Assembly: GCA_012270555.1 (NCBI GenBank)
Contig: JAAXIC010000055.1
Location: 1-36,269 of the forward strand
Direction of reading: 5' to 3'
DNA from: Chloroflexota bacterium
Lineage (GTDB): Bacteria > Chloroflexota > UBA11872 > VXOZ01
Length of the DNA stretch: 36,269 bases
The translations under genes and the position numbers were made by a program. Below the pieces are notes generated by a model. The model saw only the letters and a program-made list of their open reading frames with translations, was not told the DNA's origin and searched no databases. Below are positions 1 through 9,256 of this stretch, piece by piece. Every line of letters begins with the position of its first letter. Positions within the stretch are counted from its first letter, which is position 1.

Positions 1-777
<777 letters not shown>

Positions 778-2555: not shown

Positions 2556-4172
2556 GTGACGTACAACCTTCAGACACTCCGCGGCGACATCTTTGGCGGC
2601 ATCACCGCTGCCGTGGTGGGCTTGCCGGTATCGCTGGCTTTCGGAGTGGCGTCCGGCTTGGGAGCGCTGGCGGGCATCTACGGCGCAATTGCCGTCGGGT
2701 TCTTTGCGGCGGTCTTTGGGGGCACGAAGTCGCAGATATCGGGCCCCACCGGACCCATGGCGGTTGCCATGGCCGTCATCGTCACCACCCACGCAGGCTC
2801 GCTTCCCGAAGCCTTCACCATCGTCATCATGGCCGGTCTGCTTCAGATCGCGCTGGGCGTAATGCGGATCGGCCGCTTCGTGGCTTTCACGCCGTACTCG
2901 GTGATTTCCGGTTTCATGTCCGGCATTGGCATTATCATCATGCTGCTGCAGACACTCCCCTTCCTGGGAGCAGCGGGTGCGACGGGTGGGCCGCTGGGGG
3001 CCGTGCGCGCGTGGCCGAGCGCAATAAACAACATCAACTTCAGCGCGCTCGCCATCGCCGGCGTGACGCTCGTGGTGGGGATACTCTGGCCCCAGCAACT
3101 GCGCAGGTACTTTCCTCCCACCCTGGCGGCGCTTGTTGCCGGTACGCTGCTGGGCGTGTTGTGGCTGACAAACGTCCCGGTGATTGGAGAAGTGCCCACC
3201 GGTCTGCCGCAGATCGAGATGCCGGCCTTCTCGGCCGGGATTCTCGTCAGAGCCATCGAGCCCGCCTTGATCCTCGCCTTGCTCGGATCTATTGACAGTC
3301 TGCTTACTTCCCTGATCGCCGACGCTATGACCCGCACCCGCCACAACCCGAACCGCGAGCTGATCGGCCAGGGCATTGGCAACACCATCGCCGGCCTGAT
3401 TGGCGGCCTGCCCGGCGCAGGGGCCACCATGGGCACCGTGGTAAACATTCGCGCCGGTGGTCAGACGCAAGTTTCCGGCGCGCTGCGGGCGGCAATCCTG
3501 CTGGCCCTCGTGCTCGGCCTTGGCAGATACGTGGAGGCGATCCCCCACGCCGTGCTCGCCGGCATTCTGATGAAGGTCGGTTGGGACATCATCGACTGGC
3601 GATTCATCATGCGCGTGCACCGTGTGCAGCGCGAGCACCTGCTGGTGATGGTGATTACGCTGGGTCTCACGGTATTCGTCGACCTCGTTACTGCCGTTGC
3701 CATCGGTCTCATTGCCGCCGGTATGGCCAGCGCCCGTCAGTTCGAGCGTCTGGAGCTCGACCGGGTGGTCTCCGTGCCGCTGCTGGACCAGAGTTTCTTT
3801 GGTGAGGAGGAGACCGATGAGGAAAGAGATGCCTTCTCGGCCCGCGTGGGCCTGGTAGCGCTGCGGGGTAGCTTCTCCGTTGCCTCGTCCAACAAGCTGA
3901 TTAATACGATCAGCGTGGACATTCGCGATCACGAGGTGGTGATTCTGGATTTCACTGAAACCGTCTACATCGACGACAGCGCTGCGCTGGTGGTCGAGCA
4001 GATGATCGACAGCGCCATAGCGGAAGACACCCAATATATCATCATGGGTCTCACCGGCCCGCCCGCGTTCGCACTGCGGGCCCTCAACGTCTTGCAGCGC
4101 GTTCCTCCCGATCAATTCGCCAAGAATCTTGATGAGGCCAAGGTAATCGCGCAGCGGCTACTGGCTCAGTAG
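2556..4172 (+). CDS. SulP family inorganic anion transporter with C-terminal STAS domain
   Basis: 538 residues, typical for bacterial SulP (SLC26) carriers that take up sulfate, bicarbonate or dicarboxylates across the inner membrane. The N-terminal membrane domain (about 10-400) begins with DIFGGITAAVVGLPVSLAFG and continues with the conserved SGPTGPMAVAMA segment and LLGSIDSLLTSL. From about residue 428 a STAS domain follows (VGLVALRGSFSVASSNKL), with ILDFTETVYIDDSA carrying D473-D474-S475 at the conserved anti-sigma-antagonist-like loop. The GTG start at 2556 gives MTYNLQTLRGD, matching the family N-terminus. The Shine-Dalgarno site is weak. The substrate cannot be told from sequence; the compact form resembles BicA-like bicarbonate or sulfate carriers. 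A hairpin overlaps the stop codon. Confidence 0.92.
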   Translation: MTYNLQTLRGDIFGGITAAVVGLPVSLAFGVASGLGALAGIYGAIAVGFFAAVFGGTKSQISGPTGPMAVAMAVIVTTHAGSLPEAFTIVIMAGLLQIALGVMRIGRFVAFTPYSVISGFMSGIGIIIMLLQTLPFLGAAGATGGPLGAVRAWPSAINNINFSALAIAGVTLVVGILWPQQLRRYFPPTLAALVAGTLLGVLWLTNVPVIGEVPTGLPQIEMPAFSAGILVRAIEPALILALLGSIDSLLTSLIADAMTRTRHNPNRELIGQGIGNTIAGLIGGLPGAGATMGTVVNIRAGGQTQVSGALRAAILLALVLGLGRYVEAIPHAVLAGILMKVGWDIIDWRFIMRVHRVQREHLLVMVITLGLTVFVDLVTAVAIGLIAAGMASARQFERLELDRVVSVPLLDQSFFGEEETDEERDAFSARVGLVALRGSFSVASSNKLINTISVDIRDHEVVILDFTETVYIDDSAALVVEQMIDSAIAEDTQYIIMGLTGPPAFALRALNVLQRVPPDQFAKNLDEAKVIAQRLLAQ

Positions 4173-4194
4173 CGCGTGGAAACTTCCACACGCT
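4171..4194 (+). terminator. Hairpin at the SulP stop codon
   Basis: AGCGCGTGGAA and TTCCACACGCT form an 11-position stem with one C-A mismatch and a 2-nt turn, starting inside the stop codon. There is no T-run directly after it, but a T7 tract lies further downstream (4296-4302). Possible transcript end for the SulP gene. Confidence 0.35.
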
Positions 4195-4496
4195 GCCATC
4201 AACGCCGGATCTGAGACTCCTGCGCGGTCATCCGCTGATGTGATACGGAGCGGCTCATGTTTCAGCCGTTCTCCATAGCGTTCATGTCTCCCTGCTTTTT
4301 TTAATGCCTTGCGATTTCACATCAAGTACGTGGCATTTGCACAATGCACGGGCCTGTGGCTACAATCCGAGTACTTGGCAAGCCTTTTCGCCAAATTGGG
4401 TCGTCAAGAACTCATTTCGGCAGTCATGCTGCCAATTAAAGTTTCTTCCGACGACTTGCCGAACGGATATCACTGCGGATTAGGAGTTGGCTGGCA
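4195..4496. other. Intergenic region between SulP and alpha-2-macroglobulin genes
   Basis: About 300 nt with no supportable gene. A second imperfect hairpin (GGAGCGGCT...AGCCGTTCTCC, 4247-4274) lies upstream of a T7 tract at 4296-4302. The open frame at 4309-4500 has no ribosome binding site and overlaps the A2M start. The A2M ribosome binding site AGGAG is at 4482-4486. Confidence 0.4.
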
Positions 4497-7400
4497 ATGA
4501 GGAAGCTCTTCACATTTCTGCTCCTGGCAATCCTCATGCTGTTGCTCGTGGGCTGCGGCGAAGGCCCGCAGGAAATCCTCCATCTCGACAAGGAGTGCCC
4601 GTCCGAGGTAAAGCCGGCTGACGGCGCCTCACAAGCAGACGCGGTAGAACCAAGCCTCAAGCCCGATAGCTACGTCGCCGTCGTGCCAAGGACGCTCCGC
4701 CGGGGCTATACCGAGCAAATCTCAGTTTCCCTATTCAACAGTGACCGGCCTGCCGCCGGAGACGTGACCGTCTCGCTCCTGCGCGGCGGCACCGTGGTAC
4801 AAGCCGTTTCGGCCGCGGTGATAGGCACGGCGAACGTGGCGCTGCCGGTACCGCTACAAAGCAGCGGGCGTCACGCAGTCCGGGTGCGGGTTGATGGTGT
4901 GGCGGAAATCAGCAGTGCGAATGTAGAGGTCGTAGACGGACTCCTCCTCTTCGTCGAAACGGACAAGCCAATCTACCAGCCGGGCCAAACCGTCCATGTC
5001 CGCCTCATGACCCTGGACGCCGCGCTCAAGCCCTGGCCCTCTGCGGCAACCATTGAAATTCAGGACGCTAAAGGCACTAAGGTCTTTCGCAAAGAGGTCG
5101 AGACCGACGATTACGGCATGGTGACGATGGACGTGCCGCTTTCGGTAGAACCGAACCTGGGCGTCTGGAAACTCACCGCGTTTGCGGGCGACCAACGGAC
5201 CCAACTCGACGTGCGCGTGGAACGCTACGTGCTGCCCAAGTATGAAGTTGGCATCACCACCGCGAGCGACTGGATACTGGCGAGCGACCCCATAACCGGC
5301 ACGGTAACGGGGGAGTACTCGTTCGGCAAGCCGGTGGTGGGAGAGGTAGAAATCATCGCCTCGCGGTACGTCGGGCAGTGGGAAGAATTCGCCCGCTTCA
5401 GCGGCCCAATTGACGGCGAGGCTGAATTCGAGTTGCCGCCGGTGCGCTTTGTGGCGGGTGTTCCCCAGGCCGGCGGTCAGGGCAACGTCCAACTCGACGT
5501 GACCGTCCGCGAGAAGAGCACCGGCTACGAGCAGCAGACATCAAAGCTACTCACCGTCAGTGAAGCTCCCGCGTCGCTCAAGGTCATACCCGAGAGCCGC
5601 ATTCTGAAGCCCTGCCTGCCCTTGAGCTATCTCATTATTGCCCAGGAGCCTGACGGCGGTCCGATTGATACGGACGTTACCATCACCCTGGAATACTTGA
5701 ACCAGGCTTTCCAGGTGGCGAACACCGAGAAGATCACGGTTACGACCGTAAACGGCAAGGCCATTGTAAAAGCTACCGCTCCCGCGTATGCCGCTGCCCT
5801 AACCCTTCAAGCAAGTACGGAAGAGTCCTACGCATCACTTGCACTGCAGTCGGGCCATTCGCCTACCGACACCTTCATTCACGTCGAGCAGGTGACCGCG
5901 GGCGACATCGAGGTGGGCGATTCCGTGCAGTTCCGCGTCCTCGCCACGCGTGAAGCCCGCAATTTCTACTATGAAGTGCTCTCCAGAGGCGCAGTGGTCT
6001 TCACGGACGTAAGTTCCAGTCCAGACATCTCTTTCACGGCAACGGAGTTGATGGCGCCGTCTTCACGCATTCTGGTCTACCAGATTTTGCCGAATAATGA
6101 GATTGCCGCAGACTACCTGCCGTTCAGCGTCGAGGCGGCCTATGCCCACGACGTGGAGGTCGGTTTCAATGCGGAGGAAGTGCGGCCGGGCGATCCGGTT
6201 GACGTTAACGTGCAAACGCAAGGCGAGTCCCGTGTTGGGCTCGTGGCCGTGGACAAATCGGTCTTCATTCTTGCCGAAAACCGGCTCAATCTCCAGCAGG
6301 TTTTCAACGAACTGGAACGGCTCTACCAGCAACCGCAGGTGGAACTTCACGACACCTACATTGCCGACACCATCGACACGCGGGGCGCTCTTGAGACGTT
6401 TGCCGCCGCCGGTACGGTTGCCTTGACGAACAAAGACCTGCCGGCAGGCGAGCAACTGATTCGTCCGCCACCGCCGCCAACGCTTGAGGATTTCCTCAAC
6501 GCCGTGATCATGGGATTTGCGGCCGGAGGCGCGGGGATGGTGGCAATGGAGGCAGAAGCGATGGAAGAAGCACCCGCGGCGGAGATGATGGAACGGGCTG
6601 CACCTGAAAGTCTCGCGGAAGTCCAGCGCGTGCGCCAGTTCTTCCCCGAGACCTGGATCTGGCAGGACATTCACACGGATACTGAGGGTCGCGCCGTCCT
6701 GCCCGTGGAGGCTCCCGACAGCATCACCACGTGGGTGCTGCGTGGTGTCGGCATGTCAAAAGAACACGGCTTGGGTATGGGTGAGGGCACGCTGCGAGTC
6801 TTTCAGCCGTTCTTCCTGACCGTAGACTTGCCGGTTTCCGCGATACGGGGCGAGGAACTGCCGGTCAAGATCGCGCTCTTCAACTACCGCGAGACCGCTC
6901 AGGAGTTCTTCGTCGAGATCGAGGAAGCCGAATGGTTCGATCTGCTCGACGAACCCCTCAAGTCCGTTACGGTCGACGCCAACGACATCGGCGGGGTGGA
7001 GTTCATGGTCCGCCCCACAGGACTTGGGAACAACCCCATCCAGATCACGGCGCGCAGCATCGAAACCGCCGACGCCGTTATCAAGAACCTGCGGGTGGAG
7101 CCTGAGGGCATTCCCGTTGAGGTTGTCGGCAATCACCTGCTAGCGGGCGTCTTCCGGCACGAATTCCTGCCCTACCTGCCGTCCGACGCCATCGCGGGTT
7201 CCGGCCGCGCTTACGTGGCGCTCACCGGCAGTCTCATGACCCAGAGCATCGAGGGCCTCGATCAACTGCTGCAAATGCCGTTTGGCTGCGGCGAGCAGAA
7301 TATGATCCTCTTCGCGCCCAACGTGTTCGTCACGCGGTACCTGAAGGAGACCGACCAACTCAAGCCCGAGATCATGGCCAAGGCCGAACACCTCATGCTG

Positions 7401-8702
7401 GTCGGCTACCAGCGCGAAATGACGTACCAGCGCCGGGACGGCAGCTTCTCCGCCTTTGGCGACAGCGACGATTCCGGCAGCCTGTGGTTGACGGCGTTCG
7501 TGCTCAAGACGTTCGCCGAGTCGCGGGAAATCATCTACGTCGATCCGGCGGTGCTTGAGGCCGCAGCGTATTGGATTGGAGAACACCAACTGAGCGACGG
7601 CTCGTTTGAAAACGTGGGCTTTCTCCACCACCAAGAGCTATTGGGCGGCCTGCAAGGGCGCGATGCCCTGACGGCGTACGTGGCGATTGCGCTCTTGGAA
7701 GCAGGATCTAGCGTTGGGGCCTTTTACGGGGCCCTGCCCGCAATCCAATACTTGGAAGGCCGGCTGAAGGGCATAGAAGATCCCTACACCATGGCGATCG
7801 TTGCGTATGCCCTGGCAATTGCCGATAGCGCGCTGGCGGCGGACGCCCACGCCACGCTCATGGCCATGGCGGAAGAGGATGCGAACGGCGCGCTGTACTG
7901 GCCCGGCGGTCACGGCTACCAGAGCGCCGCCATCGAGACGACGGGCTACGCGCTGCTGGCGCTTATGGCCAACGACGACCTGGCGAACGCCTCGCAAGCG
8001 GCCAAGTGGCTCGCCACGCAGCGCAACGCTTATGGCGGGTTCGGCTCTACACAGGATACGGTGGTGAGCCTGCAGGCACTGGCGGAGTACTCGACCAGGG
8101 TGCGCGCGGACGTAGACATGACCGTCACCATGACAAGCGGCGACTGGCGCAAAGAGGTGCGCATCACGCCGGAAAATGCCGACGTGCTCCAGGTCGTGCA
8201 GGTGCCGCTCGCTAGCGAACTGGTCATGACTTCAGTTGGGAGGGGCACGGTGGTCCTGCAGTCGGTCCTGCGTTACAACGTTCCTGATCGGGAGACCGAG
8301 ATACCGGACGTGTTCGAGATCACCGTGGACTACGGCACAGAAAGCGTGGAGGTTGACGACCTCATCACGGTAAACACCAGCGTCACCTTCAACCCGCCGG
8401 AAGAAATCGAAGCGGGCATGGTGGTGCTGGACATCGCCGTACCCACGGGATTTGAGCCGGTGCGCGAGACCGTGGCGGCTCTTGTCGAAGCAGACCCCTT
8501 GTTCAAGCGGTTCGAAATCGCGGGCCGCAAGGTGATCCTCTATATCGACAACCTGCAGGCCGGGCAGACCCTCACCTTTGCCTTCCAGGCACGCGCCAAG
8601 TACCCCGTGCGCGCGAAAGAGGTTGTTTCTCAGGTCTACTCCTACTACCGGCCTGAGCAGCGCGGTGAGACGCTCGGCGGCGCGCTGCTCGTGACTGAGT
8701 AG
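4497..8702 (+). CDS. Alpha-2-macroglobulin family lipoprotein with animal-type layout and thioester
   Basis: 1,401 residues. The N-terminus (MRKLFTFLLLAILMLLLVGC) is a lipoprotein signal, so the protein should be lipid-anchored outside the cell membrane. Macroglobulin-type beta domains follow: VETDKPIYQPGQTV at 153-166 and GLVAVDKSVFILAENRL from 581, both close to animal A2M/C3. A low-complexity stretch (about 640-712, P5 run, then GFAAGGAGMVAMEAEAMEEA) sits where the bait region belongs. It is followed by FFPETWIWQDI (715-725) and FQPFFLTVDLPVSAIRGE, again animal-like. The thioester is GCGEQNM with C931 and Q934. A helical thioester domain follows to about 1220, and the last 130 residues match the receptor-binding domain (MVVLDIAVPTGFEP ... 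AKYPVRAKEVVSQVYSYY). A2Ms trap proteases through bait cleavage and covalent capture. AGGAG lies 10 nt before the ATG. A GNAT gene follows 17 nt downstream. Confidence 0.95.
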   Translation: MRKLFTFLLLAILMLLLVGCGEGPQEILHLDKECPSEVKPADGASQADAVEPSLKPDSYVAVVPRTLRRGYTEQISVSLFNSDRPAAGDVTVSLLRGGTVVQAVSAAVIGTANVALPVPLQSSGRHAVRVRVDGVAEISSANVEVVDGLLLFVETDKPIYQPGQTVHVRLMTLDAALKPWPSAATIEIQDAKGTKVFRKEVETDDYGMVTMDVPLSVEPNLGVWKLTAFAGDQRTQLDVRVERYVLPKYEVGITTASDWILASDPITGTVTGEYSFGKPVVGEVEIIASRYVGQWEEFARFSGPIDGEAEFELPPVRFVAGVPQAGGQGNVQLDVTVREKSTGYEQQTSKLLTVSEAPASLKVIPESRILKPCLPLSYLIIAQEPDGGPIDTDVTITLEYLNQAFQVANTEKITVTTVNGKAIVKATAPAYAAALTLQASTEESYASLALQSGHSPTDTFIHVEQVTAGDIEVGDSVQFRVLATREARNFYYEVLSRGAVVFTDVSSSPDISFTATELMAPSSRILVYQILPNNEIAADYLPFSVEAAYAHDVEVGFNAEEVRPGDPVDVNVQTQGESRVGLVAVDKSVFILAENRLNLQQVFNELERLYQQPQVELHDTYIADTIDTRGALETFAAAGTVALTNKDLPAGEQLIRPPPPPTLEDFLNAVIMGFAAGGAGMVAMEAEAMEEAPAAEMMERAAPESLAEVQRVRQFFPETWIWQDIHTDTEGRAVLPVEAPDSITTWVLRGVGMSKEHGLGMGEGTLRVFQPFFLTVDLPVSAIRGEELPVKIALFNYRETAQEFFVEIEEAEWFDLLDEPLKSVTVDANDIGGVEFMVRPTGLGNNPIQITARSIETADAVIKNLRVEPEGIPVEVVGNHLLAGVFRHEFLPYLPSDAIAGSGRAYVALTGSLMTQSIEGLDQLLQMPFGCGEQNMILFAPNVFVTRYLKETDQLKPEIMAKAEHLMLVGYQREMTYQRRDGSFSAFGDSDDSGSLWLTAFVLKTFAESREIIYVDPAVLEAAAYWIGEHQLSDGSFENVGFLHHQELLGGLQGRDALTAYVAIALLEAGSSVGAFYGALPAIQYLEGRLKGIEDPYTMAIVAYALAIADSALAADAHATLMAMAEEDANGALYWPGGHGYQSAAIETTGYALLALMANDDLANASQAAKWLATQRNAYGGFGSTQDTVVSLQALAEYSTRVRADVDMTVTMTSGDWRKEVRITPENADVLQVVQVPLASELVMTSVGRGTVVLQSVLRYNVPDRETEIPDVFEITVDYGTESVEVDDLITVNTSVTFNPPEEIEAGMVVLDIAVPTGFEPVRETVAALVEADPLFKRFEIAGRKVILYIDNLQAGQTLTFAFQARAKYPVRAKEVVSQVYSYYRPEQRGETLGGALLVTE

Positions 8703-8719
8703 GCTGGCGTGGGAACAAG

Positions 8720-9256
8720 ATGAAGATCCGTGTACGAGACGCCGGCCCGGCGGATGCCGCTGCTATTGCCCGGGTGCACGTGAACACCTGGCGCACCACA
8801 TACACGGGCATCCTGCCGGACGAATTCCTGGCCGGCCTGGAATACGCCAACAGCGAAGCGGTTTGGAGCGCTGCCATGGCGTCAGACCGTCCCGGCGCAA
8901 GCTTGCTGGTAGCCGAGACTGCCCAGGGTGAGGTCGTCGGCTTCGCGTATGGAGCGCCGGAGCGGGAAGGCGACCCGACTTACCAAGGGGAGATATTTGC
9001 TATCTACGTCTTGCAGGCGTACCAGCGCCAGGGGGCCGGTCACCGCCTCTTCTCCGCTGCGGCGCGGCGCCTTCACGAAGCAGGATTCGACGCATTCTTA
9101 TTGTGGGTGCTCAAGGACAACCTGCCAGCGCGCCGGTTCTACGAGTCGCTAGGCGGGACGTACCTGACTGAAAAGACCATCACCATCGGCGAAACGGACC
9201 TCATCGAGGTGTCATACGGCTGGCGGGACATAGCCGACATCACTGGTGAAGCGTAG
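8720..9256 (+). CDS. GNAT family N-acetyltransferase
   Basis: 178 residues. It begins with the strand-helix of the GNAT fold (IRVRDAGPADAAAIARVHVNTWRTTY; W24 R25). The acetyl-CoA pyrophosphate loop is Q102-R-Q-G-A-G107 after EIFAIYVLQAY, and the C-terminal helix has NLPARRFYESLG (F140, Y141). GNATs transfer acetyl from acetyl-CoA to an amine of a small molecule or protein; the substrate cannot be inferred. The WRTTYTGILPDEFL segment is common in a broad bacterial GNAT subfamily of unknown substrate. It starts 17 nt after the A2M stop, so co-transcription is likely, though no functional link is known. It converges on another GNAT gene. Confidence 0.9.
   Translation: MKIRVRDAGPADAAAIARVHVNTWRTTYTGILPDEFLAGLEYANSEAVWSAAMASDRPGASLLVAETAQGEVVGFAYGAPEREGDPTYQGEIFAIYVLQAYQRQGAGHRLFSAAARRLHEAGFDAFLLWVLKDNLPARRFYESLGGTYLTEKTITIGETDLIEVSYGWRDIADITGEA

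Follow-up and report, generated by a model that had tools for sequence, protein, structure and literature searches.

An animal-type alpha-macroglobulin lipoprotein encoded by a Chloroflexota bacterium and its relation to the animal A2M/complement family

Introduction

How did a protein resembling the alpha-macroglobulins (A2Ms) of animals come to be encoded by a Chloroflexota bacterium? The question is raised by a 36,269-nucleotide stretch of contig JAAXIC010000055.1 (assembly GCA_012270555.1), hereafter the window, which is part of a 3.18 Mb Chloroflexota genome (G000) and contains an open reading frame (ORF) whose product, P0001, is the subject of this study. A reading made from the sequence alone had left two options for the protein, an old lineage of bacteria near the eukaryotic type or a transfer between domains. 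We conclude that P0001 is, with good probability, a surface lipoprotein of an animal-type GCGEQ A2M branch native to Chloroflexota and some other prokaryotes, and that it would act as a tethered, monomeric protease trap.

Domain organization and predicted structure of P0001

The gene and its features are as follows.

4497..8702, plus strand: animal-type alpha-macroglobulin lipoprotein gene P0001, ATG start, 1,401 aa
4482..4486, plus strand: AGGAG, ribosome-binding-site-like, 10 nt upstream of the ATG, read from sequence
4497..4556, plus strand: lipoprotein signal peptide with lipobox LVGC, predicted lipidated Cys20
4653..6413, plus strand: MG1-MG6 region, about residues 53-639 (Pfam MG2 151-238, MG3 243-294, A2M_BRD 466-592; AlphaFold)
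6414..6614, plus strand: bait-like segment, about residues 640-706 (36-homologue alignment; predicted local distance difference test score, pLDDT, 29-50)
6651..6917, plus strand: MG7 (Pfam A2M, residues 719-807, FFPETWIW...)
7221..8090, plus strand: thioester domain (TED), residues 909-1198, between two CUB halves (Pfam E 6e-86; model)
7284..7304, plus strand: GCGEQNM thioester motif, residues 930-936, Cys931-Gln934 (C, E and Q invariant in 36/36 homologues)
7629..7631, plus strand: His1045, at the position of the catalytic His of C3, CD109 and A2ML1 (phmmer alignments; His in 34/36)
8409..8669, plus strand: MG8 or receptor-binding-type domain, residues 1305-1391 (Pfam A2M_recep)

The sequence-only reading had rested on this ORF, on a lipoprotein signal and on a set of motifs, all of which were recovered. 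The N-terminus of P0001, MRKLFTFLLLAILMLLLVGC, forms a signal peptide with the lipobox, and ETDKPIYQPGQTV, AVDKSVFI, GCGEQNM, FFPETWIW and FQPFFLTVDLPVSAIRGE were each found in the translation. The animal-like domain order with a terminal receptor-binding-like domain was likewise borne out, as MG2, MG3, A2M_BRD, A2M, TED_complement (E 6e-86) and A2M_recep follow one another in the animal order, every match exceeding the curated cut-off of its model. No anaphylatoxin or C345C/NTR domain was matched in the Pfam scan, and the NCBIfam scan returned no model for P0001. The protein contains only four cysteines and should thus have practically no disulfides.

Structure prediction, which had been suggested as a check, was carried out with AlphaFold on two halves of P0001 (pLDDT 83 for the N half and 84 for the C half). 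The top PDB fold matches of the N half are CD109 and the beta chains of C5, C4 and C3 (TMq 0.70-0.74), and the C half resembles native A2ML1 (TMq 0.78), native A2M (0.77) and CD109 (0.76); YfhM was not among the matches listed (50 per search) for either half. The TED is modelled as a helical toroid that matches those of A2ML1, CD109, A2M and C3. Across 36 aligned homologues Cys931, Glu933 and Gln934 are invariant, and 34 have His at position 1045, the other two having Asn; the equivalent residue is Asn in human A2M and His in CD109, A2ML1 and C3. Segment 640-706 varies in length and sequence among these homologues while lying between well-conserved blocks, is rich in Ala, Met, Glu and Pro, is predicted to be disordered, and occupies the position of the animal bait, after MG6 and immediately ahead of the VR-FFPETW strand. 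By its domain order and CxEQ motif, as read from sequence and models, P0001 belongs to the A2M/thioester-protein superfamily, with a predicted thioester.

A proposed tethered protease trap

By analogy with GPI (glycosylphosphatidylinositol)-anchored CD109 or monomeric A2ML1, trapping of proteases is the most likely function of P0001. A foreign protease would cleave the bait of the lipid-anchored protein, upon which the MG ring would collapse and the TED would swing out, exposing the Cys931-Gln934 thioester. With His1045 assisting the formation of an acyl-imidazole, the thioester could then react with amine or hydroxyl groups on the attacker, so that the protease would be covalently tied at the cell surface in a single-use reaction. 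Such a device would likely shield the envelope of a free-living microbe from extracellular proteases made by its competitors or predators. A2ML1 is known to use the acyl-imidazole chemistry of the His and to trap proteases covalently as a monomer (PMC9156758).

Several observations weigh against this proposal. Trap activity is argued by analogy for the clade as a whole. Lipoboxes occur in bacterial and archaeal members of the family, which fits surface anchoring, but of 99 homologues only 57 passed a strict lipobox scan, and the signals of many others end in PAC or PGC. Beside the gene in bacterial relatives we found no recurring operon partner, protease or pbpC, so that the A2M gene would act alone. 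Finally, the conserved His1045 would serve complement-like surface tagging equally well.

Such tagging is the main functional rival: cleaved P0001 would bond to hydroxyls of a nearby surface (an invader, a substrate or a neighbouring cell), marking or attaching to it rather than inhibiting a protease. The predicted surface anchoring of P0001 and the presence of the His in 34/36 homologues, as in C3, C4B and TEP1, fit this idea. However, Pfam detects neither an anaphylatoxin nor a C345C domain in P0001, no bacterial complement receptor is known, the bait segment is long, as in protease inhibitors, and the catalytic His is also carried by A2ML1, a protease inhibitor (PMC9156758). We therefore regard tagging as unlikely and favour the protease trap.

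Four Chloroflexota homologues (L007, L008, L009 and L082) carry twin-arginine-like signal peptides ahead of the lipobox (RRR...LAAC), and these sequences suggest export of the folded protein by the twin-arginine pathway.

Relationship to animal proteins

In phmmer searches against PDB sequences, P0001 matched human CD109 with 486 bits and human A2M with 473 bits across residues 55-1388, followed by A2ML1, TEP1, C4, C3 and C5; chance resemblance to animal A2M/complement proteins is excluded. Identity over the C-terminal 670 residues amounts to 36% with human A2M, 34% with CD109 and 29-33% with C3/C4, and the TED is 40-41% identical to those of A2M (41%), A2ML1 and CD109.

A phylogeny with animal and bacterial types, also proposed at the outset, was computed with six animal sequences taken from PDB alignments (A2M, A2ML1, CD109, C3, C4A and TEP1). 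These are the only eukaryotes in the trees, the animal stem is long, and the root rests on highly divergent YfhM types. With YfhM as outgroup, a planctomycete GCFEQ/selenocysteine clade branches first and a group of archaeal and planctomycete GCGEQ proteins second, and the six animal proteins form one clade that is sister to Chloroflexota/Actinomycetota (100/99). The same union was obtained after realignment without YfhM and TEP1 (100/98), and also when TED columns alone (984/1000 bootstraps) or non-TED columns alone (979/1000) were used. Approximately unbiased (AU) tests rejected the grouping of animals with the archaeal group (p 0.0046) and, weakly to moderately, a monophyly of all GCGEQ prokaryotes without animals (p 0.019 and 0.014). 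P0001 was placed as sister to all sampled animals, not inside their clade. In these sequence trees, then, the whole animal A2M/complement family has its nearest known relatives in the Chloroflexota/Actinomycetota clade.

Might the gene instead have been acquired from animals? Budd et al. 2004 are said to have proposed animal-to-bacterium transfer for bacterial A2Ms generally. A metazoan derivation of bacterial A2Ms is also the published view (PMC13069473; PMC9156758), and the identities to human A2M given above could be taken to favour a recent horizontal transfer of an A2M or CD109 gene from a host animal or a sponge. However, the animal proteins, C3 and C4 included, form a single clade that excludes the prokaryotes, and the nesting of prokaryotes with A2M-branch animals was rejected (AU p 0.001), so that an origin of P0001 from an animal A2M-type gene is rejected for the sampled animal families. 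The prokaryotic family is moreover deeply diverged (40-66%) across phyla and two domains, it is found in cultured Methanolobus and Methanococcoides strains and in complete chromosomes, and the P0001 gene lies in a bacterial context, has no introns and matches its surroundings in GC content. We thus consider recent transfer from animals very improbable. Of the two possibilities named in the sequence-only reading, the phylogeny supports the old bacterial branch near the eukaryotic type as the better one and speaks against animal-to-bacterium transfer; the prokaryotic and animal A2Ms may be linked by a transfer in the reverse direction or by shared descent.

That P0001 is an ordinary type I (YfhM-type) periplasmic A2M merely resembling the animal form is hardly credible: both are lipoproteins with a CxEQ thioester motif, but P0001 has GCGEQ instead of CLEQ/CTEQ and about 1,400 residues against 1,650 or more, shares at best about 24% identity with the YfhM-type proteins encoded in its phylum, finds its best PDB matches in animal proteins where the YfhM-type protein L022 finds YfhM, has no pbpC-like neighbour, and lies outside the distinct YfhM clade (100/98). 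The separation from YfhM that had been drawn from length and motif thus holds. The nearest relatives of P0001 are prokaryotic proteins of a GCGEQ clade of their own, contrary to the refuting condition set at the outset, by which they would have been ordinary YfhM types with no closer link to the animal group.

Provided that the YfhM root is correct, the animal A2M family descended from prokaryotes. We give an even chance to the more specific proposal that a surface lipoprotein of the prokaryotic GCGEQ clade, taken up by an animal lineage at an early stage or by a lineage preceding animals, is the ancestor of the animal A2M/complement superfamily. Animal immunity may then owe one of its important parts to prokaryotes, and the published direction of descent, from animals to bacterial A2Ms, would, if this is true, be reversed for the animal-type family.

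Distribution of the GCGEQ clade

The closest homologues of P0001 occur in metagenome-assembled genomes (MAGs) of Dehalococcoidia (63-66% identity). Among 400 Chloroflexota genomes, about 18 encode the P0001 type, two a GCFEQ/GCLEQ type (34-35%), and six gave YfhM-type matches only. When one genome of each species was scanned for the QFFPETW and GCGEQNM patterns, 179 relatives came up, and the 80 kept derive from Dehalococcoidia, SAR202 and other Chloroflexota, a few Actinomycetota MAGs, Methanosarcinales, ANME-2, Methanoperedens and one Phycisphaerales chromosome. The Methanosarcinales relatives, Methanolobus and Methanococcoides isolates included, are about 40% identical. By phylum, matches were found in 20/247 genomes of the phylum of Methanolobus, in 83/246 of Planctomycetota, with broadly spread identities, and in 2/246 of Actinomycetota; the viral contigs searched contained no homologue. 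The sequence-only reading had not foreseen this breadth. The clade is widespread in free-living Chloroflexota and methanogens, and it allows the origin of A2M and complement to be tested.

Cultured Methanolobus and Methanococcoides (L093-L109 and L113-L123) encode full-length A2Ms of the animal type whose lipoboxes are archaeal (ISGC, LAGC), and these would be good experimental models. More generally, the clade allows an animal immune machine to be modelled with prokaryotic proteins that are almost free of disulfides, some of which come from culturable archaea.

A variable genomic slot

The P0001 gene is preceded by a SulP/STAS permease gene (2556-4172, plus strand) and followed, after a gap of 17 nt, by a GNAT gene (8720-9256, plus strand), beyond which a second GNAT gene and CorA lie on the opposite strand. 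Comparison of this interval (window 4166-8752) with five loci of the genus (L184-L188) revealed a variable slot between SulP and GNAT/CorA. In G005:C456 (L184) the A2M gene is absent from a clean empty site, whose flanks are 88 and 91% identical and about 91 nt apart, and in G001:C8 (L185) a short A2M remnant (residues 1182-1228, tblastn E 3e-7) persists at this position, next to other genes. Unrelated genes occupy the slot in G003 (L186) and G004 (L187), and the interval of G002 (L188) is short and without A2M. The gene has thus been lost in at least one relative within the genus and has decayed in another, the remnant in G001 implying ancestral presence followed by loss.

Contamination was ruled out: the neighbours are bacterial, the GC content is 0.59-0.62, homologues of full length occur in isolates as well as in complete chromosomes, and sister genomes have a syntenic locus. 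Elsewhere in the window, an ORF at 73-774 (plus strand) matches the haem-peroxidase family PF00141 (E 1.7e-22).

Probable selenocysteine in a planctomycete sister clade

In the planctomycete GCFEQ sister clade, an in-frame TGA often stands exactly at the thioester Cys codon (G-TGA-FEQ). This codon was read in 29 planctomycete genes as TGA in 20, TGC in six, TGT in three and as no other triplet. The TGA-form loci are listed below.

L130, L131, L133, L135-L143, L152-L156, L158, L159, L165: TGA-form A2M loci, Planctomycetota

Of the 12 TGA genomes that were checked, 11 have SelB above its cut-off and one has a fragment scoring 202 bits, and a strong tRNA-Sec match was obtained in 9/12; SelB is missing from G775, which has the Cys form, and from G401. 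The TGA codon together with SelB and tRNA-Sec points to selenocysteine, which these sequences indicate as the probable replacement of the thioester Cys, with a selenoester as a possible substitute for the thioester. A search for selenocysteine insertion sequence (SECIS) elements after the TGA found hairpins in several sequences, but with covariation only slightly above controls and about the same scores in Cys homologues. Our literature search found no paper naming a selenocysteine A2M, which would be new chemistry for the A2M active site. The window genome also contains tRNA-Sec (67 bits, C15:21403-21498) and SelB (378 bits, C17:148540-150393), and it appears to use selenocysteine though its A2M keeps cysteine.

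Comparison with known systems

Two kinds of bacterial A2M are usually named, the YfhM and MagD types. Reviews describe two kinds as well, and give their origin from metazoan hosts as non-definitive (PMC5764988, PMC13069473). The GCGEQ clade is a third, animal-type kind, previously uncharacterised, and our literature search found no paper on the Chloroflexota family or on its position as sister to animals. The A2M homologue of Methanolobus psychrophilus (WP_015053894.1) was placed near bacterial A2Ms as a probable bacterial acquisition by Makarova et al. 2021 (PMC8416519), in passages that mention neither the Chloroflexota family nor how it relates to animals. The Methanolobus proteins compared here, matched by genus and not by that accession, fall in the GCGEQ clade.

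With E. coli YfhM and Salmonella A2M, P0001 shares the lipoprotein nature, the thioester and a trap-like plan (PMC5764988, PMC9156758). However, YfhM has about 1,650 residues, two extra N-terminal MG domains and CLEQ, and P0001 has neither the long form nor this motif; the YfhM gene adjoins pbpC in a number of bacteria, which is not a strict criterion, whereas that of P0001 neighbours the SulP/STAS permease and GNAT genes. Complement C3, C4 and C5 have the MG ring, CUB, TED, MG8 and thioester motif in common with P0001, as well as the catalytic His in C3 and C4B, but P0001 lacks their anaphylatoxin and C345C domains. The closest counterparts are CD109 and A2ML1, the best PDB matches by both sequence and fold, with which P0001 shares the order MG1-MG6, bait, CUB/TED and MG8, the GCGEQNM motif and the catalytic His. 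P0001 differs from both in having four cysteines only and in lying outside the animal clade; CD109 is likewise membrane-anchored, by GPI instead of the predicted N-terminal lipid of P0001, and A2ML1 acts as a monomer.

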